Shown here: in pieces, positions 1 through 63,789 of the stretch
How the letters are laid out: every line of letters begins with the position of its first letter
Position numbering within the stretch: position 1 is the stretch's first letter
Assembly (NCBI GenBank): GCA_012064415.1
Contig: SSNU01000069.1
Coordinates: 111,408-175,407 of the forward strand
Direction: 5' to 3'
From: Gyrodactylus bullatarudis
Taxonomy: Eukaryota > Platyhelminthes > Monogenea > Gyrodactylidea > Gyrodactylidae
Length of the DNA: 64,000 nucleotides
The notes under the pieces: generated by a model
The model's database searches: none
Told to the model about the DNA's origin: nothing
Seen by the model: the letters and a program-made list of their open reading frames with translations, nothing else
Position numbers and translations under genes: made by a program

Positions 1-2007
1 AGGGAATTGACGGAGTTATGGCTTACCAAGATGATATTATCGTTGGCGGAAACAATGCAGATGAACATGATCAACGGTATCAAGCGGTACTTGATCGTCT
101 TAAGAAATATAATTTCAAAATAAATGAGGCCAAACTTCAATATCGGAAAGCTAGAGTCAAGTATCTAGGCTTTGAGCTCTCAAATGGCTGCATTTTTCCA
201 GATCCTGAAAGAATACAGCAGTTTGCTCAAATTTCTGCTCCCAGTGACAAAAAGGAGCTCGTGAGTCTTCTGGCAACTTTAAGGTACTATGAGCGTTTTC
301 ACCCTAACTTATCATTGAAAATTGGTCATCTCTATGAGAAAGTCAAACAAGATGGATTCAGTTGGAATCCAGATGATAACGCAATAATCAAACAAGTAAT
401 CTTCACAATGAGTAAAAACTTCCTTACTGGCTACGACATAAATAAGCCCTTGTATCTTGCTACTGATGCTTCCGCAAAAGGAATTGGTTATCTGTTGTCT
501 CATGACCCTGATTGTAAGGAGATCATTATGGCTGGCAGTAGGTTGTTAAAGCCTGCAGAGAGAGGTTATTCAGTTATTGAAAGAGAAGGTCTAGCCGTTG
601 TGGAAGGTGTGCAGTTTTTTCATCGTTTTGTGGCCGGCCGTGAATTTTCCGTGCTCACTGATCATCGATCGTTGGTTTTTATCCTGAATCAGCTTAAAGG
701 CGAGTCTACCAGGTCTTACCGCCTGCAAAGATGGACACATATCTTGAGCAACTACAACTTCAAGATTCAACATGTTAAAGGATCTTCACTGAAATGGCCT
801 GCTTTCAAGATTGACAACAGTCTCAGAGTCCACTGCTTTGACGGAAGTTCTGCCTGCGATTGATGAGTCAGTCTGCCTAGTGAATGATTTTCTGGACGAT
901 CCGACCCTCTTGGACTTGTTTGCCAGATCCAAGGATGAAATCTACGTAAAGGTAAAACGGTATGTCTCTCATGGTTGGCCAGTTAATGTTCTTGCCAAAA
1001 TACGTCCATATACTGCTGTAAAGTATCAACTGACTGTACAAAATGGTGTTCTATATCGAGGAAATCAGGCTGTTGTGCCTCCGGAATGCAGATCTAAGGT
1101 ACTTGACCTCATCCATGATCAAAATGCACATCTCTTGCATGTCAAAATGAAGCTTAAAATGAGACTATTCTTCTGGTGGCCAAAGGTCAATCAGGACATA
1201 GCGACGTACATAAACAGGTGTAGTGAATGTCAAAAAAATGCTAGGACCAGACACAGCGCTTATCTCAAAAGCTGGCCAGATCCTCAGGACGCTTTCGACA
1301 GGGTGCATATAGATGTTGCTATCTCAAATAGTAAATATTATCTGGTTATTGTCGTTGCCTACTCAAATTGGGTAGATGTGCAGCCGCTTAGTAACTTTAC
1401 AACACAAGCTGTTATCAAAGCACTGCAGCAGGTGTTTAAATATTTCGGTAATCCCTTCCTAATTGTTAGCGATAATGGCACAAATTTTACTTCTAAAGAG
1501 TTCGCTGATTTCTTGGCTGATAGGAAGGTTTTGCACAAGCTCACCCCACCTGGTCACCATCAATCAAATGGTCATGCTGAAGTTTTTGTTGGCGATTTCA
1601 AGTCCTTTATGGAAAAGAATGCCCAGTGTTCAGATCTGGTTCATGCATATGTTGAGAATCACAACAGTTCCCCGGGCTCCAATGGTTGCATTCCAAATGA
1701 CCTGATATTTCTGCGACCCCCACGTACCAAGGTCAGTTCAGATGCCACGGCTCAGCATGGTGTCAGTGTTCCCACAACAGCATTTGTTCGGAGAGAGATC
1801 AATGGTATAGTTCCCTCCAGTGTCAATTCTCAACTTGGTTCCAACACGCTCATAGATGGTCAAGGTCGGTCAGTCCATGTAGCTGATGTGTTTCCTATGA
1901 CTGGTGAGGACGATTTAGTTTCTTCGGACAATTCAGTTGATGAACGTCCTGCACATTCTCAGAGAATCAGAAGAGCCCCACCAGGACTGAATGATTATGT
2001 CACATAA
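1..2007 (+). mobile_element. Ty3/gypsy-type LTR retrotransposon, 3' part of pol (RT end, RNase H, integrase), frameshifted
   Basis: Two overlapping reading frames, 18-863 and 811-2007, encode consecutive pol domains. The first opens inside reverse transcriptase at the catalytic YQDD box and continues into RNase H (motif LATDASAKGIGYLL). The second holds integrase. Its N-terminal zinc-binding pattern is H-x3-H...C-x2-C (the cysteines in CSECQKN). Its catalytic acids are D in VHIDVA, D in SDNGTNFTS and E in SNGHAE. The order RT-RNaseH-IN is that of Ty3/gypsy elements. The frame changes near 790-795, in the RNase H to integrase linker, consistent with a one-base indel, so this copy should not make an intact polyprotein. 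The element runs off the left edge; gag, protease and most of RT are not in the window. Otherwise there are no internal stops, which suggests a fairly young copy. Confidence 0.93.
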
Positions 2008-2426: not shown

Positions 2427-4124
2427 TTATTCATAATCCTCTCCTAAGATACGTCTCTGAGTTGGATAATTTGCCCTTTGCGGCAGAATTTGAGATTTAA
2501 TCTTGAAAAATGTTTGCTTTTTGAACTCAATTTCCTCCTCAAGCCGTACTTGGTCATCGCGCAACTTTTTAAGATTATCTTGCGCCTTTTTCAGTTCATC
2601 TTTTAAGGAAATCACAACATCCTGCAACAGATCAGCCTCAGTGAGCATTCTAAAATTATAAAATACATTTTTATTTATAAATGTAATACAGATCTGTCAG
2701 ATTTATCTGAAAAAGGAATAGCTTTGGCAAGGCTTCAGTGTTTTTACACAGCCCACACTTTCGAATGTAAAAATGTTGCAGTTACTATGACGAATAAGTT
2801 AATATGGGTATGAGCTATAAAGCTGAAAGGCACCCTTAATAAGGGTCCCTTATCCAAAGTCAAAAATTTTAATGATTTATAAACTAAAATACATACTGTT
2901 TGTTAGCATTATCGTCAACCAAGTCATTTCCATAGCGTTTCTCTCTGATATGAAATCGTGTCTGAACGAGCTTTATTGGATCCGATTTATTTCTCATAGT
3001 ATTCTTCAAATATGTAACATTGAGTTCTTGATTCCTAATTTCATTCATGACCTTACATGGATAAAAAGGTATAACTCAAATAATTATTTGACTAAGTGGA
3101 AATGCAAAAATCTCACCTGTTCAAGACTAGTCTCTAAGCTTAATTTTGCATTATTCATTTCATTCATTCGTGCTCCAATAGCAACATCCACTTGTTCAGA
3201 ACATTTCTTTAAATTTCTGGCAATATCGTTTATTAAATTCTCTATTTCGACCCGCAAATCTTCGGAGTTTTTTGTATAACTTGGTGCTAATTTTATATTA
3301 CGGTTCACTCGATCTTGCCACTCTTCTAAAGTTAGATAGTCGCTCAGAGTTTTTTTGTAATGTTCATAGTACTGCTTATTCGCATCGCCCACTGTAAGGG
3401 CCTCTGCCATTCTATCAAGCTCGATTGCGTATAGGTTTGAAGAATAATCTTTTTCAAGTTTATTTTTCAATTCGTGATTTGCATCGTTTTGTCTAATGAG
3501 ATTTTGAATTGCTCTGTCGATTAAATTTCTTGACTCAATTATGCATTCCTTCTCCTAATTTTTATTAATTTATAATTAAAAATAATAATGTTATTACTTA
3601 AAAGTAAATTGTTGAATATATATATATACTTGTAAAAGTTTGAACAACAGGTCATCGTCAACATTTTCAGATTCAACTCTTGTTTTCAAAATTTTGAACA
3701 TGTCTGAATTGATATTTGCAGGAATTTCCATAATATTACATAGACTCTCAGATCTTTTTTTAAGGATCGCGTTTTTATCAATTTGTTCAATGATATTCTG
3801 TACTCCGCTCACAATATCATTCTGAACATTTTTACAGTCCGCGATTCTTTTACGAAGCTCTTCACTTGTTAAATTTTCAGCAGATTTTATTTCTCGATTT
3901 TGACTCAATATATTTGTTTTGGAATCATTCCAATCTCTAAGACTTTTTTCGTTATCAATTCTAATCTCCTCTGATATTTTATTTAGATCGTCATACCAAT
4001 CTCTAGTTGTTCTATTCCTTTTAATGGTGCAAAATTCTCGAATATCATCCCCTTTAATCTCTTTAATGCCATTTTGGTAATTATTTTCTATCTGATCGAG
4101 CATACAATGTTGTGTAGTGGTCAT
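2427..4124 (-). CDS. Tektin-family protein (ciliary/flagellar microtubule inner protein), 4 exons
   Basis: Predicted exons on the minus strand are 4124-3630, 3554-3117, 3051-2897 and 2649-2427. All join in frame with GT/AG ends and give about 437 residues, the usual tektin size. The protein is almost entirely coiled coil. Exon 2 has the tektin pattern LTLEEWQDRVNRNI, LRVEIENLINDIA, then an R-x-NE-x-x-NAK-x-x-LE segment. Exon 3 has KLVQTRFHIREKRYGNDL, which aligns with the tektin stretch before and through the signature nonapeptide RPNVELCRD, but here that nonapeptide is strongly altered. Exon 4 matches the tektin C-terminal helix. Tektins line doublet microtubules of cilia and sperm tails. 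The start is the first ATG of the long exon-1 frame, 144 bp from the divergent G-alpha start. I cannot assign a tektin subtype. Confidence 0.85.
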
Positions 4125-4268
4125 CGATAGGAATTAACCAATTTAGTTAAACCAAAAGAAATTAAATTTGTACAAAATATCCCCAAGATAATTTACAAAC
4201 ACATTCAATGTAGACTTAAGTTTTAAAAATTATTTGCGAAAATATGAATTAGATTTTCAAATGGTAAA
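4125..4268. promoter_or_regulatory. Candidate bidirectional promoter between tektin and G-alpha
   Basis: A 144-bp AT-rich gap separates the start codons of two divergent genes, so both promoters and both 5' UTRs must lie here unless upstream non-coding exons exist. I see no convincing TATA box or other named motif. Confidence 0.4.
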
Positions 4269-6508
4269 ATGTCTTGTGTTACGTGCTGTCCATGTGAGAA
4301 GCGCCTTGTTAAATCCACTGAATCAATCAGAAATACTCGTAAAAATAATGAGATAGATAGTTATTTGAAAAAAGAGAGAAAAAGAATTCAAAATAGACAA
4401 ATGATTCTTTTACTTGGTACTGGAGAGAGTGGTAAAAGCACATTTTTGAAACAAATGAAAATTATCAATGGAAAAAGATTTACATTTGAAGAAATGAATC
4501 TCTTTCGTGACACTATTTATGACAACATTTACAAAGGAATCTTATTTTTGTTAGAAGTAAGTCAAAAGTTCATAACCGGTTTTGTAACATACTAGAATTT
4601 TATCACATAACTCAATTTTTCATCTTGTAGATAATCCATTGACTCATTTTTATTTCTTTAAATACAATTCATTTATTTATTCATTATTCGTTATGTATGT
4701 AATTTACATAACGGTTCACTAATAAGCCGTTTAGTGTCACAAATTATGAATGAATCTGCATAAAAAACGATATTTTCTTAAGATCAGAGAAACTCTTGAT
4801 ATTAATTGGAGTGAGCCAAGTGAAGACGCAGTGAGATCAGCCTTTTTCCTCGAGAACCATTACAAGGAAACTGTACAGATTCGAATTAGTAGAAAAAAAC
4901 ATGGAGAGTTAATGTGGTCTGAGAAAGAATTTCTGGTTCTTGTTGATCATTTTAATGAAATTTGGAACAATAAAGCTATACAAGATGCATTTAACTTACG
5001 CTCAAAGATGCTCACTGAGAGTTTTGTAAGTTTTTTACTTTCATTTATTTGATCCTGAATGCACTGTAAACTAAAAGACTAATGTATTTTAGTAATTTTG
5101 CATTTCCGTATATTCATTTAGTATAAATGTATTTAAGAGAATCTTGTTTGAAAAATTTTGATAAAAGCATTAGTTATCTGGTACAAAAACTTTATTGTAG
5201 GTTGACAACTTGTCAATAGAGTTGTAACGAATTCTAAACGCAGGCCTTTTCTTATCTGTAACAGGTTTAGATTTGTATAGTTACTTGAGAAACTTATTAA
5301 AAGATTATTCATATCTTTGATAACTCAATATTAGTATAGAATTTGTTCATAGAAAATTTCAGCAACATTTAGATTACCTCCAAACAAAACATTGAAAATT
5401 TAGACAATAAATTTCAAAAACAAGATTGACAAGTTGTCAATGAAAAGTTAATTGAATTAACTTAATTCTGAATCTTAATAGTGGGGGGGGGTGCGACAAG
5501 GACTTGTCGAGGAGGATAGTGCTCAATCTTTTTTTAGGGTCTTTCCCTTAGGGTTGTTAAATAGAATTATTCAAAATGAGTGAATATGCAAGCTAATGAA
5601 TAACATAGATTTTTCGAAATTCAATAAAAGATTCTATAATAAATTTATACAAATTTCATTTCCAGAGTGAAAACATACGATACTATTTGAACAGATTGAA
5701 TTTTATTGCTATTAAAAATTACAAACCTACAAATGAAGATATTGTATGGTCAAGGAAACCTACTGAAGCTATAATCGAGGAGGAAATAGCCTTGTATGGA
5801 ACTAACCTTGTCTTCATAGACGTTGGTGGCCAAACAAAAGAACGACACAAGTGGTGTCACTTTTTCTCCAATATGAATTCAGTTCTCTTTCTTGTTGCAT
5901 CTAGTCATTTCGATGAATACTACCAGGATAGAGTTACCAAAGCCTTTAGAAATAAATTATTCGAAGCTCTTGTTGTCTTCCAAGGTCTTATCAATCACAC
6001 CGCCTTTCGTAACGTATCAATAATACTCTTTTTTAACAAAACAGATATTCTCAAAGAAAAGGTTGCAAAAGAAATAGATATATTTAACATCCACGAATTC
6101 AGACGTTTTCGACCCAAGTATAACCCAAAAAAGTTGGAGAGTGTACAAAGTTTTCTAGTGGACCTTTTTGCAAGTTGTATCGACCAGACTGCATTAAATT
6201 TTAATAATTTTTTCCAAAATCAAAATCAGATAGAAGTTGACGATGAGAAAAAGAGATCTTCACTTTCTGCCAGATCATCTCATAGACAAATAAAAAATCG
6301 AAGTTCAAGTGATGGAGTAAGATCGGATAATTGCATAAATCGAGAGGCCAGTTTTGATCTAAAATATTTCAATGCAAACAATCACTCCAAACGAACAATT
6401 TACAAGCATTTTACCACGGCTGTAGACAGACAAAATATTGAAACTGTTTTCAACGCTATGCAGGATACTGTACTCCAAAATAACTTGAGAAGAATAATGT
6501 TGCATTAG
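4269..6508 (+). CDS. Heterotrimeric G-protein alpha subunit, G12/13 class, 3 exons, with an extra Ser-rich insert
   Basis: Exons 4269-4556, 4783-5025 and 5666-6508 join in phase 0 and encode about 457 residues. The P-loop is GTGESGKST (from residue 50). Switch I is WSRKPTEAI, keeping the catalytic Arg (residue 207). Switch II is DVGGQTKERHKW with the catalytic Gln (residue 233). Then follow FFNKTD and the HFTTAVD box. The segment SSHFDEYYQDR and the C-terminus RRIMLH resemble vertebrate G-alpha-12/13 and fly concertina rather than Gi, Gq or Gs. There is no Gly2; cysteines at positions 3, 6, 7 and 9 suggest membrane anchoring by palmitoylation, as is usual for this class. Typical members have about 380 residues. 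The excess is mostly a Ser/Arg/Asn-rich insert (about residues 347-415) between the last helix and HFTTAVD. An AATAAA signal lies at 6614-6619. Confidence 0.93.
5202..5509. repeat. Three short perfect palindromes in the second G-alpha intron
   Basis: TTGACAACTTGTCAA (5202-5216), TTGACAAGTTGTCAA (5426-5440) and CGACAAGGACTTGTCG (5494-5509) share a GACAAG/CTTGTC core. The first two differ only in the central base and are reverse complements of each other. A G8-9 run lies just before the third. They may be ends of a small mobile element or protein-binding sites. Confidence 0.45.
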
Positions 6509-6922: not shown

Positions 6923-8000
6923 ATGGGCATAGATTCAGATTCAGATTTCATTATATATCAAAAGAGGTTTTCCGATGAAGATATTGATGAACTTATTGAT
7001 TATATAGAACAGTACCTTTTTTTATTATTTTTTTAGAAATCCTGAACTTACTTGCAAAGATATAATACGAAATTATTGTCTCATCAAAACTATTCCTGAA
7101 GATACAGTATTTAATCTCTTCCAAGAGGTCATGATAATGGACTATTCCGGTATTTTTAACAAGCAAAAGAAGAATGATAGTAAACCTTTCTCTCTAGAAG
7201 TAAATTATTTATAATAAATTTAGATGGTGCTTAATTTATTTCATGTTTATTTCGGGGGTCTGGATCCTGACAAAGTTAATGACAAGTTTTCTAAAGACTT
7301 CACTAAATATCCGTTTCGAGCTCTTGAAAATTCACTTAAATACAACCGATTTCATTTTGATCCCAGCCTCAAGGATATTTTAGAAGATGATTTTAATCTT
7401 CTTGAAAATTTAGTTGATCATTTGTTAAGTCGCCCAATTGTTCAAGCCCAAGTCCAACAATTAAATGAAGGAGTTATTAGAAAAGCTGCAACCGTTCTCG
7501 CTATTTTTTTGATTTCTCAATCTTGCTACAAGTCACTTAAAGAGTTGAATGAGATTGATTTGCCTGAATCTGTATCTAGAGCAACAAGAGATAAATTCGT
7601 TTACAACTTGTGCCATACATTAAGTGAAGATTTCCAATGCTCAGATGATATAATTGAAGATCTGAAAAAATGTTTCATTGATCCCCTAAGTGTGCGTGAA
7701 ATGGATGGCTTAATCAAAAATATTCATACTGAAATAGAAATATTTTTCAAGGAATCACTCAAATTCCAAGGAAATCATAAAGCTCCTGTTTACAAGAGGT
7801 ATGCTGGTTCACTAATTCTCTTATAATTTTATTCTTTAGAGAGACAAACAAAGGACCCGATTTTGTTAGAAAGTTCAAAAAAGTAGAAGATGATAAAATT
7901 GACTATTCCAAGGTTAGTTTGTCCTCATTTTTACTTTTGATAAATTTCAAAAATTAAATCTGAATCTTTATTCTAGTTTATGCGTACCTCTTACAAGTAG
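6923..8000 (+). CDS. Unrecognised 307-residue helical protein, 5 exons with very short introns
   Basis: Exons 6923-7011, 7037-7199, 7224-7798, 7840-7912 and 7977-8000 join in frame through GT/AG introns of 25, 24, 41 and 64 nt and end at a TAG. The product starts MGIDSDSDF and ends RTSYK. It is acidic and predicted mostly helical, with no signal peptide or membrane segment seen. The large third exon carries a conserved-looking core (GLDPDKVNDKF, ENLVDHLLSRPIVQ, IRKAATVLAIFLISQ). I do not recognise the family. The short exon 1 (29 codons) and the last exon (7 codons plus stop) are the least certain parts, but the frame would stay closed at the introns without splicing, which supports the model. 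The gene follows G-alpha on the same strand (about 415 bp gap) and converges on Gli. Confidence 0.72.
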
Positions 8001-8265
8001 TGACAATTTGATAGTTATAAACCAATTGATTTATCCAATGATTAATTCATTTACTGCAATAAAAACTTTATTTGATAATTATGCAATTTGACTTTTTCAT
8101 TCTTAATGAATTTACTAAAATCAATGATTGAGTCCACAGTATGGACTTCTCAATAATGGTATTAAAGGTTTTTGTTGAAAAAAATTTACACAAAATTCTT
8201 CTAGTAGTAAATTTATCAGCAATTATTGTATTTGGAACGAGGCGCAATTCACTTTGGTACATTAC

Positions 8266-11200
8266 TCAATAAAAGTTTTCATTAGGATTCATACTGCACA
8301 TTACCATGTTACTTCCTAAACTATCAATATTCGGGATCTCTTCCAATATAGTCTCTATCGTGGGCGATTCTGGACCATTTTGTGATGTTGTCTGATGATG
8401 ATGAGAGGTTGGTGGCTGATAAGTAGTATTCTGGTAACTTGATGCATAAGGGAATGTTGTCGGGTTTAGTCTTGAGGAATGAGGAACAGATTGATTTTCA
8501 CTGTTGTTATTACAATTAGGATTGGAATTAGAAACATAAAAGCCATTGTTATTCAATATTAAGGGATTATTCATGTTATCTGAATTAAGTTCATTCCAGA
8601 CTGAAGTCAGTGAAGTGTACTGCTGAGGCTGAGAGCTGATAGGGAACTGGGTTGATGAAGTTGCCGAAGCAGCTGTCATATACTCAAAGAAGCCTTGATT
8701 GTAATTAGCATTATTATTTGATGGGGTATTATAACCACCGGTGGAATAGGATGAAAAAATTTGACCATTATTCTGTGTGGCTGGTTGAGCTTGACTGGTG
8801 TAGTTTTCACATTCCATAGAATTTCTCAACTGCCAAGAGTCGACTTTATCCTTGAAATAAATTTGACCTGGTTCAGCTGAGGGTGTTGGTGTTACACGAC
8901 TCAAGTGGAATTTCTTTTCTGACATCTTCTTATGAGACTTGTTTAGAATATCTTCCTTCTTTGATATAATACTACTCGTGGAATTAGAGGCGATGCCACT
9001 CTCAATAGCTGTACTTGATGTGTCATTCGATGCCATATCCCATCGATCTAGAATATTTTAGTAAAATATTTTTTCATGTAGTTACTACAAAGTAAACATA
9101 CCATTAGTATTCTGAGAATGATATCCGATAGACTGACTTTCTTCGAATGATTGATTCAATGTAGTCTGTTCTATGTTAGATGCTGACGATGGAGTCGGCG
9201 TATTTTGTCCACTCATCAATCCTACATCGTTGCTCACATCGATTGTGTACTTTTCTTGCAAGTTTGCTTTGATGTTAATCGCAGATGAGTGAAATTGATT
9301 AAAGGTTTGTCTACTGGTACAATTTGTCAACATTTGTAAACCACCTAGGCTATTTTCCATATAACTATAGTTATTCTCTTGATTCAACCCATTCTGATTG
9401 TTGAAGTTGTTACTTGCCTTGAATGGAAAATAAATATTTTTCAAAATTAACTCAAAACGGGCACCCCATTTTTGTTTAGATTCAGATCAATAATTGTGAT
9501 TATTTTAATTTTAACTAAGCCAGGAGGCATTGTCACTTTCTCATTCAATTTTGTGTATTTTTCAAGTAAAAATTAAAAGAATAATTCATGAGAATCTTTG
9601 ATCCAGAGGTACATGTGATGAACTTGTTACTAATATACTACTGTATGTGAATCATGTTTTATTATTATTCAAAGTGATGAATAAATAACATATGCTCAAA
9701 GTAAAACTTAATTTGTCTGCTCTCAGTCCGAGACCCCACCTCTCTTTTTATGCTTGCATATTTTACATGCTCAACTTGCATGGATATTATTCATTTTTAG
9801 TAATTCGAATCAGATGATAATAAAATAAACTAATACATGAGGTTTGCACTTGTGGAGGAAGTTATAGACTGACTAAGAATCATGAAACAAATTCTCATCA
9901 TATAAATATAAGTAATATAAGTAAATATAAGTAATGAAACAAATGTATGTATTTTATATATTGAGTATATTCGGTAGTATCATCTCATGTCAAGTATTTA
10001 TTGAGTTTTCCTAGGATTAAAGTGTCAATTGGGAAAGTTACAATTTCTTTAATTGAATTATGGGAATTTTTCTCAGAGACTAGAAGTAATAAAAAATACA
10101 TTATCCCTTCTAACAGTGAATTGAGACTATTCTTATATTAGTATTATACGATTTTATATTTAGATAGACAAAAGAGATGGAAAATTACCTTGGAGGATTG
10201 AGTAAAATGGCTGAATTGTTGCGAGAACTGATGCTGACTCTGATTGAATTTCTGAGATTTACTTAAATTTGATTTAATCGTATTGAAAATACTCGGATAG
10301 AGTCCATTATCACTTGAGGAAAAACTCATAGCCCCATCATTATACTTCATGTCAGTTTGAATTATAGAATTGCCATCATGTTTACCATAGTTTATCAAAT
10401 TCGGATAGAAAGAATTAGAAGAAGTATTTGTATTGGTCTGATTAATATGGCTGCTATTACCAGTGTTGTTTGAGTAGGAATTTACAAGACTATTTGAGTT
10501 GGATGTACTCATATGCTTAGATTGAGCAATTCGATTTTGTATATCAAGGAGAGAGTTTTGTTTGAGATATTTTTGTCGAATTCTGTGCTCATTCGAGTTG
10601 TTCTTTAGAGCTCTATCACTCCAACTTTCTCCACGATGCTTTTTATTTGCATAGACCTCAGCTCCATGCACAGTTTTTACGTGTTTCCTTAAGGAACTAG
10701 GGTCTGTATAACGTTTGGTACATCCCTCAACCTTGCAGACATATGGCTTGTCTGTGCTATGAGTTCTATTTTGATGTTTAGCTCGATCAGAAGCATTACT
10801 GAAAGCCTTATTACAGCCAGGTATTTCACAAAGGTATGGCTTCTCACCAGTGTGAGATCTTAGATGAGTTTTTAAATTTTCCAGCCTGGAATATCGTTTG
10901 TTACACCCCTGAAACTGTAGTTAGATAAAAAAATTTTTAATAAAAAAGTATAAATAAATCATAAAAATATCAATAAAAATCTTACCAAGCATTCATGGGG
11001 TTTTTCTCCAGTATGACGTCTCATGTGAACAACCAACATATATTGAGCTTTAAAAGGACGACATTCACGAACACAATCCCGCCATTGGCAGACAAAGTTT
11101 TTCTTACAATTTGGAATATGCTCAGATGATAAGTGCTTGAGGATAAAGAAAATGAGTTATTTTCGATTAAATCAATCAACTAACTAACTCTGACAAGTTC

Positions 11201-12120
11201 ATCTTGCGTTGCAAAATGAAAATTACATGTGCCCCACCGGCAATTGGTCTCAATAAAATCAGGATCTCCCTCTTGTGGGCCATGTTCTTCATCATCAACA
11301 CAAATTTGGCTGGCTCTGTACGAGGGAATATTTTGATTAACTGATTTTAATGTGGAACTAGAATCTTCCATAACAGCTGGAAGTGGATTTTGATGGAGTT
11401 GCAATCTTAGAGATTGTGTTTCAGTAGTGTAAGGAAAAACTTTATTGTAAAATATAGGAGAATTATTTAATTCTCCTTCTGGCGGAGATGGAGTTGAAGT
11501 GCTCAGACAAGCTCCGGGCTCTGGAATCTTTTGAAACTCCATATTTTGAATAGGATTAATCTGAGCTTGGATATTAGATGATTTTGAAGTTTTGTTGAGA
11601 TCCTCAAGAGCTGAATTCATTGCAAGAGCTGCATAAGCAAATGAGGTTAATTTTGACTGCGCTTGGAAATCATTCAATTGACGATCCGATGTGGTTGGAC
11701 TCACGCCAAGTGATGCTAATTTAACAATAGACATTTAAAGTCTTAACAATCTTCAATTTCATTAAAATTACCTGCTGATAAATGTCCATAAGAGCCTGTG
11801 GTTGTTTCAGAAGTGAAACTATTCTTTCCCATAATTAGAGTATTTTCCCTTGATCTAGTGATATTTAATATTGCAAAAGGATCATGTATGGTAGACTGGC
11901 TATGAGGTCGTCTTGACGAAATTGTGGATTTCATTTGTTCTCGGCGCAGGAAGTAAGCTGTTGAAGCACTGTTCGACTGACCGATTCGGTGCATTTTTGA
12001 AGCATCCCAGGAATGTTGAGGTAAATTCTGATTCATCATGAGTGATCGTTGTAACGAGTTGAACATAGCTGCAGCTTTAGCTAGGATCATCTCGGACTGT
12101 TTGTCTATGGAGTAATCCAT
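8266..12120 (-). CDS. Gli / cubitus interruptus-type zinc-finger transcription factor, 6 mapped exons
   Basis: Minus-strand exons are 12120-11772, 11715-11189, 11135-10986, 10914-10189, 9417-9102 and 9047-8266, all in frame, giving 949 residues from the ATG at 12120. Exon 1 ends with GSYGHLSA, the conserved Gli block ahead of the fingers. Five C2H2 fingers follow across exons 2-4: CRWGTC...HLSSEH, CQWRDC...HMRRH, CLFQGC...HLRSH, CEIPGC...HQNRTH and CKVEGC...HVKTVH. Linkers HTGEKP and the words [25 protein letters not shown] and TDPSSLRKH are diagnostic of Gli. Fingers 4-5 contact the target DNA in known members. The tail is Asn/Ser/Gln-rich and ends with an acidic segment and SNMVMCSM, resembling the Gli activation region. 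Gli proteins are nuclear effectors of Hedgehog signalling. A further 5' exon probably lies at 16,468-16,735; an exon joining it to 12120 was not found. Confidence 0.95.
9418..10188 (-). other. Gli intron, 771 bp, no gene seen
   Basis: AT-rich intron between the exon ending at 10189 and the exon beginning at 9417. It holds a short imperfect TATAAGTAA-type tandem at about 9,900-9,935 and nothing else I can name. Confidence 0.6.
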
Positions 12121-15100
12121 TTTTTCTGACTTTGAAATATTGATATCCCTATCAAAGAAATGTCAAAATATTATCTACATTGAATGCATTTTACATGTCC
12201 TATATATTTTTCCCTTGATATTCAATAATCGGGATTAAAAATTAAATTACGATAGATAAATTAAACTAGGGAAACCCTTACAATGATAAATCTAGCTTGG
12301 TTAAATTTCGCCAAAAACAACGATCAACTAAAGTCAAGGTTACAATTAAATGATAACTCTATAATGCATTGCTTATCATAACCTCTATTGTTAACATTAT
12401 TATATTAGTATTAGTAAAATAACTATTAATTGTATTAATCTGTCAAATCATATACATTGTACACAGATATGATATACAATGCATAAACGGAATACAGTTG
12501 TTTTCGTATAATCTGTATTATCTACTGGATTATTATGGAATATGATTATCAGCATTATTGAAAATTCACTGACCACCCACAATGACAAGTTGTTGTTTTT
12601 GTAGAGAAAGAGCAAAAAGCTGAATAAAAAGAAAGATATAATTCAGTTATTGTTTTTATGCAGAAAAAAACAACTGCAAACAATTTCAGTGATATAATTT
12701 CCAGATTCATAATGAAAATCAGAAGCAGTTTGATTGGGTTGCTTCTACGAAAAAAATTCTTCCTTCTGTTATCAACAAAAATCAAAAGATTCCCTCAAAA
12801 TCATAGGTTTTACATTGGCATTCTCTATGAAACCAAATTACAAAGATGAAAATGATTTTTGAGATTAAAAGCAATAAATTTTTGTGTAACCCATCAGTCC
12901 CCACTGTACCTTTGAAGGAACGTACCACTTAAGCAACTCATTATTATTCAATAAATAATGTCCATCTGAGGGTCTGAAAAAAACTTCCCATTCGAGTCCT
13001 AAATAAAAAATAGGATAGAAAAAACCTGTAATGTAATCGCCTGAACTCGATCTGCTTAAGCTTCAAAGATAATATTTTTTGCATCAAAAAATGATCCAAT
13101 TTTTATTAAAAAAATAATATTAAAAAACCATACTCTAGATAAAAGATTGACTGGAAGTGGGACTTTAAGGGCTAAAGAAAAATTTAATTTACAATTACTA
13201 ACTGGATTATTAGCCTCATTAAAGTTGGGTAAACAACATTATTAAACATATTCAGTAGATTTTTTATTATTATTATTTCAGAAAAGTATTACTAATAATG
13301 ATAGTCAGTAGTAGAAGTATGCTAGCTAGAGCTTGTGACATTGTTTGTTTAACTTAACAATAAATCTCATGTTTTTTCCCATTTCTCTCTTTCCTTATTC
13401 TCCCTTTTCTAACAAGAAAGAATAGAAAAGTATTTATTGTAATGTGGAAAAAATCTTAAGAAATTAACTCTCTCATAATAAAGAGGATAAACATGCGATA
13501 ATTTTCTATTGCACAATTTTCCATTTCTACGATAGTTAAACTCAATGGTGAAAATATTATTCTTTTATGGAAGCATATAAAAGAAATCAGTACCACTAAT
13601 GTATTTACTATTTTTGAAATAAAGAAGTAAAAACATGAATACACAAGTAAAGTTAATTTTCTATCATCCAATCATGAAAAGGGAGGATGGTTGACGGCCA
13701 ACATTTTTCTCTTAGTAAAATAATAACTTGAGGTCAAATAAATATATTCTGGGTGTGTAATTATCAAGGAATAATCAGAGAAAAATACAAAACTACTGTC
13801 TAGATGAAAGTAATTCATGTTAAAAATAATATTCACTACACTCCAAGAAGAAAGCTGTAAAAATTCGTTGATTTACAAAACCAGAATATTGCTGTTGGCG
13901 CCTGAATTATCATAAGAAGGGAAGCAGAAGAGTTAAAGTTTTGATGAGATTATTTCAAAAAAAATAATCCATAAAAACTAAAAAGTTGGAGAACAAGTTT
14001 TAATTGCTTCCCATTATTTATTTGTGATGTAATTTTAGGAATATACATGCGAATAATTTTATTTATTGCTTTCTACATGTTCTTGTGAATGTAGTTTGCT
14101 TTCAGTTTACAGGTTGTGTGGTCAAGGAACAAGCAAATAAATATATCTTGTTCTTGTATGACTTTAGAGTTTTTTTACAACAAAACTTGAATAACTAAAT
14201 CAAGAATTTTTTCAAAACTATTGCAATGCGGGATAACTAAGGAGTTTTATTGAATAAGAGATTAAAAATAGATTTGTAATCATGATAGAGTTACTCGATT
14301 TAAAGAAAAGAGTTTCATACATGAATTTCTAAAATTTAAATTAAAAAATAATCTAACATACTCTTTTGATTGTATTGAGAGAAATCAATAATAAATATAA
14401 TCAAGCATATGAACTAAACTCGATGCGTGTTCGTATGTGTTATAAATGGCGCCAATATTTCCCTATTTCCCACATTTACTCCTAAAACATATACACATAT
14501 TCCAAAAGTCGATTCGGCACATTTTAATGTACAATATAGGTGGATGTAATATCAGAAATGAATAGAAAATTTATGTGTGAAAAGTCGAAAAAGTAAGCAC
14601 AAATTTTTTTTCTGTAAGGATAAAAAACGATATTTTTTATTCCTTAATAAATCCTAGGTATCTTTTATTGTATGGTTAAGATGAAAGAAATGATCATAAA
14701 TATAACTAGAGTTACTTTCACAGATTTTATGACAGTCTCAGATTTTGTATATTTCCATTTATAAGCCATAGTTTGTTTAATCAAAAATTAAAATGTCAGA
14801 GAAAATCTTTTTCAAAAAGCCTATTGCCTATTTAAAATCAATCAAATTTATGGATTTGAAATTGAAATTTCTCTTATTTATAAAGAAAAGATCACGTGGA
14901 AATTTTCAAATCGATCTCTTGTTCCTTTCTTCAGAAAGATCTCAAGAAATCGCATAAAATCTCATAATTTGAATTTTGAGTTTATACCGAATTCTGTCTC
15001 ATACATCTGACCCTATGAGATGAAAATTTTTAGTTATCACAGAGTAATCGTAAATTGTTACTTGCGATCAGAACTAAGCAAGGAAATTGAGTATTCTTAT

Positions 15101-30100: not shown

Positions 30101-33100
30101 ATTTTTAGTCAAAACTCACATTCGCTAACTAGTTCAGGGTCATCCTCTAAAATAAAATTTTGTATGAGGAAAATTTAAAATTATTTACAAATTTCACTTG
30201 GGAATGAAAACTAACCTTGCTCTTCTTCTTGTTTGTTCTTGACAAGAGTTTGAAGTCGAGTACTTCGTTTGATGCAATTGGAGCAGAACCAGTCTCCTTC
30301 AGGAATATTTTTCATAGGAGGCTTCAAGCAGTAAGTATGATAAGGATCATTGCAACGATCACAAAGCAACATTTTATCCTCATTTTGGGTTTTGGAGCAT
30401 TTCTGGCACTTTGAAGATTCTATACTCTTATCCCAACTTACGGCAGAATAAAGAACACTCTATCAAAAGATAAAATATTCTTTAATTATTGAATTTGTTG
30501 ATATTTATATAGCTAATTCGTACTTGGTATAAATTAGCAGGGATTGCTATGCTAATTCGTAATGAAAGTGACAAAATACACTTGGTCTATGCAATGTATT
30601 ACCCTCTGCCCTTTTAGTACGCATTAGCAGAGCGATCTCTGCAAATTTATACTCAAGTACGAATTACCTACAACATATAGATGATATAAGGCAGGAATTA
30701 TGATAGAAAATGCAATTCCGATCAATGTTCTTAATATCTGTAGCCTTTCACGTTTTCAATATTTTATGAGAGCTGTGTCTAAGGATCTGATATTATGAAA
30801 ATTCATGAAATGTTATTCAAAAGACTCACGAGCAAAAAGTAGACGTGAGAAAAACTGGTTGCTGACTCAACGCCATTCTTCCATTTTCTTAACCACGTTT
30901 CATACTTTTTAGTAATTCTAGACTTTTCAACTGGAGTACTACTATCAATTTTGGTGTAGCCATATTGGGGAACTTTGATGAAACTCTTGTTGAGGGCTTC
31001 GAAAATTTCAAAAATAATTTCTTTAATCTCAACAAGGACAATTTCACGTGTTTCATTCAACTTAGTGATGGCCTCTTTTTCGTCTGTAATTTCAGTGAAA
31101 TTTCTAGAATCAATTTTCTTCTCCAATTGCATAATACGATCTTCAAGAGCTGGATAATCTTCAACACCGCCAAGACCAGATTGTCTAATTCTAGATTCCA
31201 TATCAATGATATTGTTAATAATGACAGAGGCTAATGATTCAAAAGCTAGCTTTGACCAGTCATTCGACTGATTTCTTAAAGAGCGACCTTCCTTTTGTTC
31301 ACGAAGCAATTCCGAATCTCTATAATTAAAATAAGGATTTTTACAAATCTATCATTTTGAATGTAATCGAAAAAAAAGAACAAGAATAAATATCGTACCT
31401 TGAAGATATAGCATCTGAAATTGTTTCAATTAAATTGACATCTTGAAGTTTATCAGAAAGAGACGATTCCTCTGCTCCAAGACTACAGAGGCTTTCAGTG
31501 AGCTTTTCCAAGTCGTTAATTGTATTGATCATCTTCCAAGTGTATTTAGTTTCTGTACTAGTTTGATCTTCTCCTGCGGTTAAATCAATCTTTAATTTAT
31601 CATCAGCTTCAGGTACTCTAATAAGAATTCTTTCTGGGGCTGATTTGAGGTAAAAATATTCTGCATTATTACGATCTTTTCCAAAAGGTCTAATTCGAGT
31701 TACTGCTTTCAGGTAATTTTCCAACTTTGTAAGATGTGCTTGTTCTCTGTTGAGTTTATTAGTTTCAGTGAGAAGTTGTCCTTCAATCTTTTGAATTTGT
31801 TTGGATCGTTTACGTTCTTCTTCTTGTTTTATTGAATCAACTTGTCTAAGTGACAAGCGAGGTTTCGAGCTTGTAGAATGATTATCATCTGAAGTTGAAT
31901 TTGTAGCAGTTCCCTCAGGCTCGTCTTCCTGTTTTTCTAAAAGCATGTTTTATAAGAATTTCAATTCCCTTTTATATTATTTTCAGTAATTATTATTTTT
32001 AAAAGTTACTTACTTTCATTAGTTACTGGTTTATCAATAGATTCTAATTCAAAATTCAAATTTGAAACGACATCCCTCAAATCTCGAACTTTGGCTCTTA
32101 ACTTGTAAGCTTCAGATTCAACACAACTGATAGCATGATTAACAATATTTGATTGTAATACTTCGTTCATGATAAATTCCAATAATTCAATTCGTAACTC
32201 AGCTGAAATTTGGTCCAAATCATACTTTCTCAATGCTTGTAGTATACCTGGAATTTCCTTCTTGGTTTTTAAAGCTTTAGGCTGAGTCTTTGAAGAGTAA
32301 CTGGCTTGAGAGGCATCATCGTCTAAGAACAATTCCTCTTCGTCTTCTTCATCTTCGGTGAGTGGATCATCTTCATTTTCATCCTCATCCTTTGCACTAT
32401 TGTTGGAATCAGATTTATGTCTCAGCTGGTAGTAGGCAGGTGGTGGATCGTATTGTTGTGTCATCAAAATTTTGACAATTTCCACAGCAGTGTAAGGATT
32501 AAGGTGCAATTCATCAAGAGTGAAACCTAGGTAGCTTACTTTAAGCTGAAAATATAAAAGTATTAATCGAAAGGTAACTTTTATATATTTTCATGCTGAT
32601 CAAAATTTTCGGAAAAGAAAATCCTGTTTTAAAATTCTATATACATGCGCTGAAAGCTAAATACAAGAAGTAATTCGTTATCTTGACCCTTTAAGGTCCG
32701 AGTTTAATTAATGACCTCTTGACAAACTTTCTTTGAGAATATTGATAAAAGTTATTAAATGGTGTGTAATTTTCAGTTATTTATACTGTTTTCAATATTT
32801 TGGACTACATATGGATTAAACCACTTTCAGAAAAAAACAGTCAAGCTTGGTTTAGGACCTAAGTTGCTTATTAACTTAAGTTTTTTAGTCGTAATTATTT
32901 ATTTGAATAGCAATGATTTTAGATATTAAACTGAAAAATATATATCGATTAGAGCGAGTCAAGTATTTTTTTCAGGAACAATGTTTAGGCAGCAATGCGA
33001 ATTTGTTAGATCTATATCTGACACATGAAATTTTTAATTCTCTGATACTCCAAAATCCCATTTTCCCAAAAATGGCTTCAACATATCCCAGATTAATCGG

Positions 33101-36487: not shown

Positions 36488-37155
36488 ATGAAATACTATC
36501 ATAAGTATAACGAAAGCAACATCTTCCATTTAGAGAAAAAATCTGGAAGTAATTCTAAATCTAAATAAAAATTTTAGAGTTGAATAAAAATTTTATTGCT
36601 GCAAATATTAAAAATGTCAAAGTTAATAAAGAAGAAGAATTATACAAGGTATTTTTGATTCTATTCTATTCTAGCATAACCAATTTGAAAGTTCAGAGAA
36701 AAGACCTAGTTTGAAAGACCAAAAGTTCATTATAGCTAACAAGACAGCAATCAAACAGATTTCAGAGAAAAATTCTAAAAAAAAGATTGAAGAAGAAATA
36801 AACAAATTTATTCCTGAAGCACACAAGCGTGGCAGAATTCCTGAATAGTAAGGCGACTTAATTCAAAATTATTCATAGTCTAATCAAAAGAAAAATAGAG
36901 TACGAAAGAAAACGGTGTAAAGATTATTCCCTTCAACCCTCTCTAACTGACTCATCTCATTCAGATGTCAAAAGTGACGCTGAGGATTATAAAATAATCA
37001 ATTCGATGTTGCAACGAAGAAAACAAGAACTTTGTGAAAGAATTAACAGCTCTGATTCCTACTTCAATGATAGAAGGCGAGAAAATTTGGAATATCAGTT
37101 GGCTGAGCTTCAAAGAAATATTGATAATATTTCTCTAAAAGCTCCTATTCATTGA
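36488..37155 (+). CDS. Enkurin-domain protein, 4 small exons with 26-31-nt introns
   Basis: Exons 36488-36548, 36578-36648, 36675-36847 and 36879-37155 are joined by GT/AG introns of 29, 26 and 31 nt and give 193 residues ending at TGA. Individual exons are too short to stand out as open frames, but every phase closes. The C-terminal half has the enkurin layout: KRGRIPEYLIKRKIEYERKR (family: PxYLxKRKxE), then a long helix MLQRRKQELCERINSSDS and RRRENLEYQLAELQRNID (family: KKRREEL...RRKEELExQLxxLExDI). Enkurin is a calmodulin-binding adaptor and microtubule inner protein of cilia and sperm flagella. The human protein has 256 residues, so this is short, mainly at the N-terminus. The calcium-channel-related Pro-rich region is not apparent. 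Confidence 0.75.
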
Positions 37156-37329: not shown

Positions 37330-38460
37330 CTTCTGCTTCATGGATTGATGTCTGAAAGAGTTAAGGATCTTAACTTGAGGTTGATCTTGCCCTTTATTCT
37401 TATCGAGAAAAATTTCGAATCGATAGGGAGATGTAGACTGGACAGAAGGCTGTAGGTATAGCTGTAGTGCAGCACGTTAGAGCCATACATGGGTAAGGTT
37501 GGCCTCATAGAGTGCTGATCTGTAGTTTTGGGGTCTAGACAACTACATAACATTGAATACTTTCTAGGGCTTTGATTTTTGCAGCATTAGTTGATGAGAA
37601 AATTGTTGTGCCGTATTTATGAGGGCGATAAATTTTTTATTTTGGTGGAGTCTGAAAGTTGAGTGTCTGAAAAATTTCCTGCGAGGAGGTCCTAGCAGCG
37701 TGATTTTATTTTTGAGTCCAAAATTTTTGGACACGTTGAGGGATTCGAATTGAGGACAATAGATTCAAGATTTTTCTTGATGTAATTAAGTTCATTTTGT
37801 ACAATTTTTGGTCATTGTTATATGGGATGATGACTTTGATATCGTCTGCATATCTGAAATATTTCTGCTAGGTTGAATTTCTGAGAATACAAGATTAAAA
37901 AGTAAAGTGGCGAAAATCCCACCTCGAGGAACACCTGATGTTATAGGGTGAGGAGTTGAACATTCTTGATTAAACTTTACGAATTGAGGCTGAGATGTAA
38001 GAAAGCTAATAGTCCAATTTATTATGAATGGGTTTCAACTTAAGCTCTTACATGAGAGCGGTATGGATGGCGAAGAAATGCAAAGATTTAGGATTATTGC
38101 AGATTTTCCTCAGTAGATGAGGTTTGAAAATGTGCTCTTGTTTTCACAGAATCCGTGTTGAGAGGTGATCAATAATTGAAATTTTGAAAATTTAAGAATT
38201 TCTCACTGACACAGTCATACATTTGACTCTTGTGAGGATTGTCTTCGATTAATCCCAGTCATCAACTCGACGAACGTTGGGTTGCTCAACAATTAGAGGG
38301 CTGCAGGGTTCTGCGCCACTCTTCTACATTGTCCAAATCGACCTCGTGTGATCCATTCCTGAGGGAGGAAAGGTTATCATTGATCTCAGTCATAAGTGCT
38401 ATATCCGATCAAATTTTTTGTTTGAAAAAAAATCTTATATTGAATTGAAAATATAAATAC
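37330..38460 (-). mobile_element. Degenerate non-LTR retrotransposon RT fragment, first family
   Basis: Read on the minus strand, about 37,720-37,960 encodes GVPRGG...LLFN and a YADDIKVIIPY catalytic box in different frames, the motif order of non-LTR reverse transcriptases. Many stops and indels separate the pieces. The flanks 37,330-37,720 and 37,960-38,460 look like the downstream and upstream parts of the same relic. Confidence 0.65.
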
Positions 38461-39914: not shown

Positions 39915-41800
39915 ACTAGTGTCTGCAATCAAAACGAAAATCATCTGGTTAATGGAGGTATGAATAAAGTAAAGACTTAGAGTAATCTAATTTAGATCTA
40001 ATGTGTGACATGACAGATTTAAGATTAGTCAGGTCATTACAATCAGACAATTTATATTTTAAATTAATAGCGTTGAAATTAGATAATAGGTAATTAGCAT
40101 CGTATTTAGAATTCCTGAGATTATAGTTATTCTCAGAAACGGAATAGGACTCAGAAAATTTTTTAACTATGAACGCATATCTACGAACCCAGAGAGGGTT
40201 AATCCCTGAGATCAAGATGAGTGCATTGTACGAGTCCAGGTGGGGATATAAAGAATGTAAAAATCTATATTGTACCCGCTCAATTGTTAAAGATTGAGCA
40301 TTATTCAAGTTAGGTAGAAGAGGGAAAATATAGTCAAAAAGAGGAAATACCAATGACTTGTAAGCTTTTAGTCTTACGTCACTGGATTTAGAGAATTTTC
40401 TAATAGAATATATTATAGTATTAATTCTAGAAATGTTAAAAAGAGGATCAATTTTTAAATTAGATGACATACTGAAACCCAGATCTAAAGTTAAGGAGAC
40501 AATTTCTCCAGGAAGTAGAAGAGATTCCATGAGAGTTGCAGGGAGACCAGATGGGAGCATAATTTTGCATTTATCTCTATTAATATAGAGCCCCATGGCC
40601 TCAAGGGAACCTTTAAGAAGCAAGAAGTTACGATTTATTTTTATAATGTCTAGAGCATTATTAATTCTAAAGACGAATTTTAGGTCGTCGGCATATTTTA
40701 TGAGGACACCCTCAATATCCTCAGAGAGCTGAATATCAGCGAAGCAAATATTAAAAAGAAGAGGGCCAATAGAAGAACCTTGGGGGACCCCAGAGTTTAT
40801 CTTAACAAGTTTACTGTTGGTGGCGTTGAAAGTAACATATTGCATCCTTTTTGTTAAAAAGTACATAGTGAGATTAATTACATAAGGATCAATTTTTAAA
40901 TCAATAAGTTTTTTTTAATAAAAGAAAATTTCAGTTTATCAAAAGCCTTAGAGATATCAAGGTAATGTATCAATAAAAATGATTTAGATTTTAATAGAGG
41001 GATGGAGTAATCAAGGCAATCCAATAAATTGCTAGAAGTACTTTTTTGGGGTAAAAAACCATGTTGAGATGCATCAGGGAAGGGAAACGGAAGGGAGGCT
41101 CTTATTTCGGCAGTAAGGAATCTGTCAATTACCGAAAGGAAGACGTTTAATGACGAAATAGGCCGAAGATGGGCATATTCCGAATAGTTTTTGATTTTCG
41201 GTATTGGCGTAATTTTGACGGTAAGCCAATCATCGGGAATAAAACACTCAATAATGCAACGATTCAGGTAGTTACATAAATTGGTCAAGAAGTTATTATT
41301 AAGGGAGTTTAGAAGATTTAATGAATTAAATTTTGAATCGATTCTTTTAAGATTTTTACATGAATCTATAAGGGTTCTAAATTGTTCAATACAGATAAAG
41401 GGAGGAATAGAATCAGAGGGGATTTTGTCAATGATTTCGAAATTTCCAAAGGTGTTTTCAAAATACAAATTAATTTCTTCACAGAAATCTTGGTCTGAGA
41501 GTGAAGTAAAATTTTTAATGGAAGAGGTTTTGTTTATATTGAGCAATTTTCTGAACTTGGACCAACCTCTTTGAGGATTGGATCTAAAATCAGACAGGAT
41601 ATTTTCTTCAAAAGCTTCCAGGGCAACAGATTCAATATTAGAGGATATTTGAAAAAATTTAAAAGAGTTCTTAGTAATACGGGTGGATTCCCTTAGAATC
41701 GAGTAAAATAGATCATAATTGAATGAGTTATTAGAAAACATAATAGAAGAAAAAGTCTGGATAAGATCTTTACATTTTTTATAATCAACAGTTTTTTTTC
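39915..41800 (-). mobile_element. Non-LTR retrotransposon reverse transcriptase, one frameshift from intact over 1.8 kb
   Basis: Two frames, 41741-40896 and 40866-39949, are consecutive parts of one reverse transcriptase. The first has the fingers region (PQRGWSKFRKLLN, DDWLTVKITPIPK, LRPISSLN, HGFLPQKSTSSN) and motif A region HYLDISKAFDKL. The second has GVPQGSSIGPLLFN and the catalytic box KYADDLKF, then the thumb. They are split by a frame change in an A/T run at about 40,907-40,917. No endonuclease or ORF1 is present upstream. Coding capacity runs to about 41,800, where another fragment abuts. The low damage implies a recent insertion. Confidence 0.88.
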
Positions 41801-51000: not shown

Positions 51001-54000
51001 AATTTCAAAATTACTCTAATGCATGAATGTTAAGAAGTCTACAGAAACTTTTTTATCAATCTTCATTACTTAAAAATAACCTTAATCAAAGCATCCCCAT
51101 CACAAAGTACTTGTAACGTATGAGTCAACTGAGTACATGTAATATATTGTACATGATCTATGGAAGGCCAACCAATCAAATATTGTCTTTCTCTTTATAG
51201 TGGCATGTAAAGACTGACGAGTATGCCTGAAATAAAGTACTTATTTCTCCAATTATCAGGCATCGCCTTTCTCATAGATATAAAAATAACTGTTTTATGA
51301 ACTAGATGATCCTTTTAAATAAAGTTAACGGTTTTCAAATCATACATTGAATCGATTAAAAATTTCATGAAATTACTTGACATTCTTCCGTTAAGATTTC
51401 CATTTGTTACTGGATTACCAACAGAGCTTGAGCCTTGATTCAGCTGAACAGTGTAAGTTACATTATCACAAGACCTTGCAGGTTCCACAATTGTGTATAA
51501 GACAGAAGTACTATTCTCTACTTTAGGTATTATTGAAATTGGTGAATCCAAAGTACCTAAATTATAAAACTTGTTTATCATTCATTATAATCATTAACTA
51601 TTGTAATCTTACACTAAGAAAAGGTTCAATTGTGTGAAAACAAAACCCTTTATTGTTTAATAGAAAATTATAATCATGAAGATATTCAAAGAGAAACGCA
51701 TTTTGTGATCTAACATGACATGAATTGACATGAAGATGAGAATTCACTTGTTTTTACAAAAAAAACTCAATATTTTTCTTCGGAAAGTCAGGAAAAATTT
51801 ATTTTTCCATAATAAAATGAGCCAATAAGTTGTGGAAATTAAAAAAAATCTGAAAGGATTCAATTTACCCAATTGGCTCATTTTATTATGGAATTCGATT
51901 TTCCTGACTTTCCGAATAAAAATATTGAGTTTTTTGTAAAAATAAGTGAATTCTCATCTTCATGTCAACTAGGTTTAGGTAGTTTCCTAAATTTTATTAT
52001 CTTATAATAATTTATATTGTTTCTATTACCTTTAGAATTCAAATTTCAGGTCTCTAGGGTTAATTTTTTTCTTAAAGACAAGAAAAATAGTCTGCAAAAC
52101 ATCTGAATCAGGGTTAATGAGACTTCAAAGATGATCAATTAGACATCAGCAATCTGGACTTGTTTTCTCTACAAAGTCAATTATCACACACTTAAATGAG
52201 TGCAAACAAGGTGTATAGAAAAATGGAATGACAAAAAACCTAAAAGAGCTTTTGATACTACATATATGAGATTTAGTATAAGTAGTCCAAAAAATTAGAT
52301 TTTGGTATAGGTTAAATTTAAAATTATCTCTATCTTGATCAATATTATATAATAATTTTTAATACTTTTAGGTAAAGTTAGCTTTGAACTTGGTGCCGAC
52401 AAAGGACCTAAGGCGTTGCTTGTCTTTCCTTGAACTCTTATTTGGTATGTTGTGCAGGGGATTAAACCAGTAATTGTCTTTGGAGAACTAGTTGCTTTAA
52501 GTTCTTTTGGGCGACCTCCTATCGGATTATAAGTTATTATATATTCATTGATGCCTTCTAGTGGAGTCCATGCTAATTCGATTGTAGTATCGGTTTCATT
52601 GCTTGGAGTTATTCCTGTCACTTCGCTAGGTATAGTTGCTTGAGGAAGTGTTAAAAATTTAATTAAAATTGATAAAAACTCATAAGAATACATTGAATAT
52701 TTAAGAAGAAAACTATTTTCAAAGTTTATACACCATTTCAGTTTAATAATTATAATTATAAGGCCTTATTTGAGTTTCAGATCTTGAATGAGGTAAATCT
52801 ATATGCAATCGTAGACTTTTTTTGTAGCGTAAATAAGACTTGAAGTATGTGTGAATGCTCGGTCAGTGATTTTAGTTTCTACATTGATCTTGTTGTATAT
52901 ATTATATTATGTATGATGAGTGAAGGCCCTTATTTGTGAAAATCCATTTTTTAAATCAAATTATAAATTGATTATAATTTCCGCATTTTGAAAAGAGATC
53001 AACTCCAAAAAATTGATGCGTATCTGAATTCGAATTAGCAGATAGGATATTCCAAGTAATCTTGTTCTTCACTTTCAGAAGAATCACTACCTAAATTCTT
53101 AGAATCGATCAGAGTTTCGATATCAGAGGACATGTTTTCTTCTTCTTAGCTCATGTTATGAAAAAATGAGAAAATCATATAGAATACAATGTGAGTTCCC
53201 CGTTAGTTGAATTTTTCATAACAGACTATCTTTGATACATTTTTGTTTGGGGAAACGATAAAAACTAATGGTAACAAGGTTGTAATCTAGAACTTGTAGA
53301 TTATTAGTTTAGCTAGGAATAGGTTTTTGTTTGATTAAGATATGGCTCTCCTATCTAAAGTTATTATAAATCAAAATATGATTGAGGCGAGGGTTAATTA
53401 AACCAAAAGTTAACGTCTAACCAATTCAAATTTGTCGGAGAGAATCTGATTAGTTTTTAGTCTTAAATTCTAGCTAGACTGTTCCTGTAAAATCCTTAAG
53501 CAAATGATTTCAGCAAACACTTTTAAAACATATTTGAAATTTTGATGATATTCTAGTAATTTAATTTTTGATTATTCATTATTTCGCAAAAATAAACCAT
53601 TGGGAATAGTGTTGGATCTCTAGTCACAATAATTTATAGAATTTCTTTTGTTTCAATGCCATAATAGAAAATAATTTCTGAAACTCACCTCCACCAGTAT
53701 ACGTTATCTGTTCAGAGTCGAGGCTAGTACTGAATTCCTTTGTCAAATCATCTTGTACTCGCATACTTCCGAAATATTTCAAGCCAGCAGTTATGTCTTT
53801 TCTTAGTAATGTTCCTTGTAAATCTCTTGTTGTGACTCTGAGAACCTCCTCCTTGGTTAACCCTTCTGAAAATAACACAACTACATTGGAGTATGTGTTA
53901 CAGTTATTAACATCAGCCTTTTTGATAGTCCAAACGATATTATTTTCGGCATTTTCATACAGCACAAAAGATAGAGCTGGTGATGGTTCTGATAAAAAAC

Positions 54001-63625: not shown

Positions 63626-63789
63626 CTGTGTGAAATAATTGTGAGAAAAGTAAAAGTTGGTATTGAAAAATACAATAAATATAGATGAATGAATCTTTAT
63701 ATTCGAAAAAACTATCTTGGAAAAAAAGAACTCAATTTTTCTAGCTTGTAGAAAAGAAGAATTATTATATTGATAAAGCAGCTGAAAAA

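Follow-up and report, generated by a model that had tools for sequence, protein, structure and literature searches.

Introduction

The clear animal precedent for introns of this size is found in the dicyemids (PMC2222250, PMC6543705, PMC6736024), for which a mean of 26.2 nt in 16 introns (PMC2222250) and a median of 27 nt (PMC6543705) are given, and a mean of 38 nt in D. japonicum. Dicyemids, too, are animal parasites, and their introns share with those described here a spliceosomal nature, a length of about 26 nt and conserved positions. However, about two thirds of dicyemid introns are shorter than 30 nt, whereas here only 5 of 66 estimated junctions are of 33 nt or less, and kilobase-long introns occur in the same gene. 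The orthonectid Intoshia linei has a median of 57 nt, which is near the densest length group here, but most of its introns exceed 30 nt, and we found no 24-nt edge described for it (PMC6543705). Outside animals, Paramecium bursaria and other ciliates have GT-AG introns of about 24 to 25 nt, as here, and SMU1 and RBM17 are conserved in ciliates; these organisms are protists, however, and Paramecium is said to have ultra-short introns exclusively (PMC12862383, PMC5014332). In human cells, a route is known for introns with a truncated polypyrimidine tract or a short distance between 5′ splice site and branch site, which are aided by SPF45 or SMU1/RED (PMC8363638, PMC6692369). The model introns used there, of 56 nt for SPF45 (PMC8363638) and 70 to 150 nt for SMU1/RED (PMC6692369), are longer than those considered here, although the factors are encoded in this genome as well.

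For gyrodactylid genomes, sizes of 67 to 91 Mb, GC contents of 31 to 39% and mean introns of 353 to 773 nt are given (PMC12677651), and we found no report of introns of 24 to 33 nt in Gyrodactylus in the open-licence literature. Here, we describe such introns in Gyrodactylus bullatarudis. As a feature of this genome, they are well supported by its sequence; our literature search turned up no earlier case in this lineage, although the kind itself is known. Whole introns of 24 nt interrupt conserved genes of an animal, and one of these genes has kilobase-long introns as well. This opens the question of the minimal intron to direct test: what factor, or what change at the donor, permits an intron of 24 nt, and is the machinery the same? 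Gene prediction with the minimum intron length set above this size would misinterpret the genes concerned.

Tiny introns in two genes of the window

The window is a stretch of 64,000 nt from a 77.3-Mb assembly of 471 contigs, with a GC content of 0.32 in a 200-kb sample. A gene at positions 6,923 to 8,000 consists of five exons and 307 codons, with its stop codon ending at 8000:

6923..7011, + strand, exon 1, ATG start (frame)
7012..7036, + strand, 25-nt intron, GTA...TTTAG, phase 2 (frame, shuffles)
7037..7199, + strand, exon 2 (frame)
7200..7223, + strand, 24-nt intron, GTA...TTTAG, phase 0, with in-frame stops if retained (frame, shuffles)
7224..7798, + strand, exon 3, which starts with ATG, a possible alternative start (ORF, frame)
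7799..7839, + strand, 41-nt intron (frame)
7840..7912, + strand, exon 4 (frame)
7913..7976, + strand, 64-nt intron (frame)
7977..8000, + strand, exon 5 with stop codon (frame)

Among the four combinations in which the 25- and 24-nt introns are kept or removed, only the removal of both yields an open frame that leads into the 200-residue ORF at 7224, and retention of either one stops the frame early. In 1,000 dinucleotide shuffles of the 524 nt upstream of exon 3, a structure of ATG, exon, tiny intron, exon and tiny intron arose once, with 147 coding nucleotides, and none of the shuffles reached the observed 252. The initial annotation had proposed these two introns, with their GT starts and TTTAG ends, and had stated that the frame needs the removal of both in order to close; the coordinates, lengths and ends proved exact, and the claim about the frame was borne out by the four combinations. 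Searches of Pfam (at its cut-off), the PDB, a set of 5.8 billion proteins and the genome itself revealed no relative of the gene product at the thresholds used. Because exon 3 has its own ATG and the protein is without a detectable relative, the two introns rest on frame logic and not on homology, and proof of tiny introns was therefore sought elsewhere in the same genome.

A second gene of the window, encoding an enkurin, contains three further tiny introns:

36488..36548, + strand, enkurin exon 1 (frame)
36549..36577, + strand, 29-nt intron (frame only)
36649..36674, + strand, 26-nt intron (frame only)
36848..36878, + strand, 31-nt intron within the Enkurin domain (frame and domain score)
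36879..37155, + strand, enkurin last exon (ORF, frame, Pfam)

Of the eight ways to keep or remove these introns, full splicing is the single one that leaves the frame open throughout, and any intron that is kept brings an early stop. The Pfam Enkurin score rises from 14.6 bits for the ORF of the last exon (profile positions 11-89) to 25.6 bits for the spliced protein (positions 1-89), against a cut-off of 23.6, and the added profile positions derive from across the 31-nt intron. The annotated lengths of 26, 29 and 31 nt are confirmed in their coordinates, and homology tests the 31-nt intron.

Longer introns, and one more candidate, are found nearby:

4557..4782, + strand, 226-nt intron of a G-alpha gene in the window (L008), a contrast of ordinary length (spliced alignment)
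5026..5665, + strand, 640-nt intron of the same G-alpha gene (spliced alignment)
31320..31344, - strand, 25-nt candidate intron of a WSD-domain gene, joining two long ORFs (frame evidence only)

Introns of nearby genes had been described as 50 to 250 nt or several kilobases long, which is partly right: the 226-nt G-alpha intron fits, and the 640-nt intron of that gene and the 25-nt candidate of the WSD-domain gene do not. The Pfam domain of the WSD-domain gene does not cross this candidate. In a tektin gene at 2427-4133 (- strand), Pfam PF03148 matches three ORFs, one of them over its cut-off, and introns of about 75 nt (3555-3629) and of several hundred nucleotides are likely.

Homology-supported tiny introns in conserved genes

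Proteins were aligned to 27 loci (8 G-alpha, 11 actin-type, 5 tubulin and 3 CCT) with a spliced aligner that allows only GT-AG introns of at least 15 nt and charges every length equally. The G-alpha and actin loci were taken as returned by the search, while short gaps were part of the reason for choosing the 5 tubulin loci (of 30 rows), the 3 CCT loci (of 14 rows) and the G-alpha locus L052. From 61 proposed junctions, 44 passed a filter on the flanks and on the need for the segment to be removed; the latter rule guards against insertion artefacts of the kind that some annotated very short introns of Tetrahymena probably are (PMC5014332). The rows of 33 nt or less that were dropped by the filter measured 27 nt (L006), 30 nt (L052), 29 nt (L037), 25 nt (L040) and 15 nt (L050). 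By hand we removed four more junctions: two proposals, of 19 and 107 nt, from tandem actin copies, one of 203 nt with 3 residues beyond it and one of 1237 nt with 4 residues before it, which left 40. A kinesin alignment stands outside this set.

Twelve of the 40 kept junctions are 24 to 33 nt long, a count to which the tubulin, CCT and L052 loci, chosen in part because of their short gaps, contribute; in the loci not chosen by intron size, the count is 5 of 25. The G-alpha gene L006 has introns of 24, 24 and 26 nt with strong alignment on both flanks, and at the same positions and phases its paralogues have introns of 71/218, 66/61 and 165/96 nt, respectively. In L052, spliced alignment gives introns of 28, 31, 24 and 31 nt. 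Paralogue introns of 38, 39 and 71/218 nt occupy the sites of the first three, and none of the aligned paralogues has an intron at the site of the last. A 30-nt proposal is uncounted, being a multiple of three in length and without a stop. By profile coordinates, introns of 1.86 and 5.04 kb follow further on in the same gene. An alpha-tubulin gene (L045) has introns of 32 and 29 nt, the former where its paralogue L047 has one of 88 nt, and a CCT gene (L050) has a 33-nt intron with conserved sequence intact on both sides. In a dynein gene (L053), a 31-nt intron, read by eye, joins two profile matches. Because tiny and longer introns have positions and phases in common, the tiny ones look like shrunken ordinary introns and not like new insertions.

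The 26-nt intron of L006 (C267) ends in TTAGAGAG, in which the frame is kept by the third and last AG alone, so the two nearer AGs must be skipped. This skipping fits a scanning rule, as if the nearer AGs lay too near the branch site.

Abundance and length distribution of tiny introns

Lengths were also estimated from the gaps between neighboring profile hits of eight Pfam families, which are placed without any GT-AG rule. Only loci with more than one hit entered the estimate, and we also set aside hits that belonged to different genes of the same contig and a dynein hit that overlapped. Sixty-six of 91 junctions were usable. The other 25, whose short estimates were 31, 28, 28 and 10 nt, were dropped for bad placement, four from mixed tandem actin genes. 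Among the usable junctions, 5 are of 33 nt or less, 4 of 34 to 49 nt, 18 of 50 to 70 nt and 14 of 71 to 200 nt, and 25 exceed 200 nt, the longest reaching 5 kb. At 5 of the 66 junctions estimated from coordinates, tiny introns form a minority in this genome; this count is a lower bound, since those whose length is a multiple of three (24, 27, 30 or 33 nt) can be read through. As 61 of the 66 junctions exceed 33 nt, the genome is not of the dicyemid type. At 18 junctions where coordinate and aligned lengths are comparable, 12 agree exactly (including those of 26, 29, 31 and 32 nt) and 6 are off by 4 to 24 nt.

Sorted by length, the 25 unselected aligned introns begin with 24, 24, 26, 32, 33, 38, 39 and 55 nt, with nothing between 39 and 55 nt; in the full set of 40, introns of 43, 52 and 54 nt fall into this interval. 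Two length groups are therefore neither shown nor excluded.

Decoy-controlled scans outside the window

We counted GTA-AG segments that, once removed, leave two long open frames joined, and compared them with 11 decoy end pairs, relative to segments of 15 to 23 nt. Beyond the window, a 200-kb portion of contig C98 contains 33 such joins of 24 to 31 nt, significantly more than the 13.6 expected (P = 0.002), and 23 versus 5.0 expected when the interior holds at most two G (P = 1.7e−5), a filter that we chose once the homology-supported introns had proved poor in G. In the window alone, 8 joins of 24 to 31 nt against 9.2 expected represent no excess over decoys. Two codon-bias (ab initio) scans did not place tiny GT-AG introns above decoys, with a coding signal of about 0.07 nat per codon, and the length spectrum of GTA...TTAG segments over 343 kb had no clear peak.

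Of 37 hits listed from the scan, 14 were translated and 5 genes were run against Pfam: the domain lies across the junction in two, beside it in one and elsewhere in one, and one gene is without a domain. In a DPP2-like gene, the domain spans a 31-nt intron and the protein is gapless at the junction against PDB 3jyh, and an ECM29_N domain crosses a 29-nt intron. The junction of an MSH2-like gene lies outside the MutS_III match, at the edge of a PDB match. This MSH2-like gene (L025, about 7700-9200) carries a pair of 31-nt candidate introns, and a stop lying in frame between its exons could be the trace of another short intron or of an error.

Ordinary spliceosome or a separate mode of recognition

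We propose that the introns of 24 to 33 nt are very probably real GT-AG introns, shrunken from ancestral ones, that are removed by the same major spliceosome as other introns through intron definition. The observed part of this explanation comprises the junctions, the intron positions shared among paralogues and the excess over decoys outside the window. Ordinary ancestral introns would have shrunk toward a lower bound near 24 nt. In the living animal, the major spliceosome that serves the longer introns would splice the tiny ones too, pairing the two ends across the intron; SMU1/RED may relieve the short distance between 5′ splice site and branch site, and SPF45 may replace U2AF on the truncated pyrimidine tract. 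SMU1, at 68% identity to its human counterpart, is encoded in the genome, as are RED (E = 1.5e−64) and a protein with an SPF45-type C-terminal domain (65% identity). Because these short-intron factors are encoded and the tiny introns share positions with longer ones, the ordinary major spliceosome acting by intron definition appears to be the favored candidate. In HeLa extract, a distance of about 50 nt between 5′ splice site and branch site is needed and splicing stops at 46 nt, and the 70-nt model intron used for SMU1/RED is unspliced in extract (PMC6692369). Given this need, a standard animal spliceosome would have to tolerate far less here.

The initial annotation had suggested a specialised mode of recognition alongside ordinary splicing. 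Its descriptive half stands, as homology and the scan outside the window place tiny introns of spliceosomal type beside ordinary and kilobase-long ones; the specialised mode itself does not follow from these data. We hold it to be a tentative possibility at best that two recognition regimes operate in the same pre-mRNAs, one for a compact, gene-clustered class of 24 to about 33 nt and one for ordinary introns of up to 5 kb. If they did, an animal spliceosome would work at less than half the distance between 5′ splice site and branch site that human extract tolerates, and single genes would supply the internal control. It is likewise doubtful that the tiny introns form a distinct class with a GTA donor, a relaxed position +5, few G and a bound near 24 nt, recognized as one unit without a separate polypyrimidine tract.

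Such a class would be consistent with differences at the splice sites. Position +3 is A in 11 of 12 homology-supported tiny introns versus 9 of 23 introns of at least 50 nt (P = 0.004), and position +5 is G in 7 of 12 versus 21 of 23 (P = 0.03). With one intron per gene and the window and dynein introns added, the corresponding counts are 8 of 9 tiny versus 5 of 13 long introns for +3 A (P = 0.03) and 5 of 9 versus 13 of 13 for +5 G (P = 0.02). Interior G amounts to 3% in 18 tiny introns (six window and dynein introns included) versus 9% in 23 long ones (P = 8e−5). The tiny introns also cluster by gene, significantly in all 40 junctions (P = 0.0008) and weakly in the unselected 25 (P = 0.05), and it is the latter that show the gap of 39 to 55 nt. 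Yet these counts are small, several features were tried and the genes were partly picked. The five introns of 34 to 49 nt do not separate (+3 A in 4 of 5, +5 G in 3 of 5, but a G content like that of the long introns); the introns of 43, 52 and 54 nt close the gap in the full set; and positions are held in common with long introns of paralogues. The initial annotation had seen hardly any space for a separate branch point at such lengths; YTNAY-like branch-point sites occur in 15 of 18 tiny introns (shuffled mean 14.0) and in 20 of 23 long ones (shuffled mean 19.7), in neither case above shuffles. U12-type introns carry the donor motif RTATCC, and it was found in 0 of the 18 tiny introns.

Alternative start in the orphan gene and possible artefacts

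For the gene at 6,923-8,000, translation could instead start at the ATG at 7224, in which case the gene would have no tiny introns and the open stretches upstream would be due to chance or to a 5′ untranslated region. This ATG is placed exactly at the start of exon 3, and no exon of the gene has a homologue. Nevertheless, we consider this start improbable, given that an upstream structure of the observed length appeared in none of the shuffles and that introns of the same type are homology-supported in other genes.

Mimicry of tiny introns by assembly errors or pseudogene frameshifts, of which two cases were seen by eye and dropped (the 19- and 107-nt proposals), is very improbable for the kept segments, which run from GT to AG, contain stops or shift the frame and fit the protein without loss, several of them recurring at paralogous intron positions, and the excess in the scan is absent from decoy ends. 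The tandem actin copies on C356 (L035 and L040), in which frame breaks gave rise to the aligner's false introns, look like damaged copies or assembly errors.

Other features of the window and the genome

Only one 18S-like match was found in the genome (L043, 1-2049, - strand). It is divergent, with the Rfam model stretched over 2049 bases for 1403 positions at 164.5 bits, and because of this divergence and modest score, it may be a degenerate copy. The primer PBS18SF has no match in it within 3 mismatches, and 23 of 23 nt match the Gyrodactylus primer PBS18SR (primer text in PMC11166112) at a site where the eukaryote consensus differs. A glass sponge and a dicyemid had also been considered as sources; the PBS18SR match, the GC content of 0.32 and the values given for gyrodactylid genomes (PMC12677651) favor a gyrodactylid.

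Within the window, mobile-element open frames were recognized by eye as fragments between genes: a Gypsy-type integrase at 793-2007 (+ strand), LINE-type reverse transcriptases at 37792-38034 and 39949-41798 (- strand) and a Penelope-like reverse transcriptase at 61713-62802 (- strand). Also by eye, a GLI/ZIC-like zinc-finger gene lies at 8266-12162 (- strand), and many exons resembling fibronectin type III repeats extend over about 12 kb at 51300-63731 (- strand), possibly as one very long gene.
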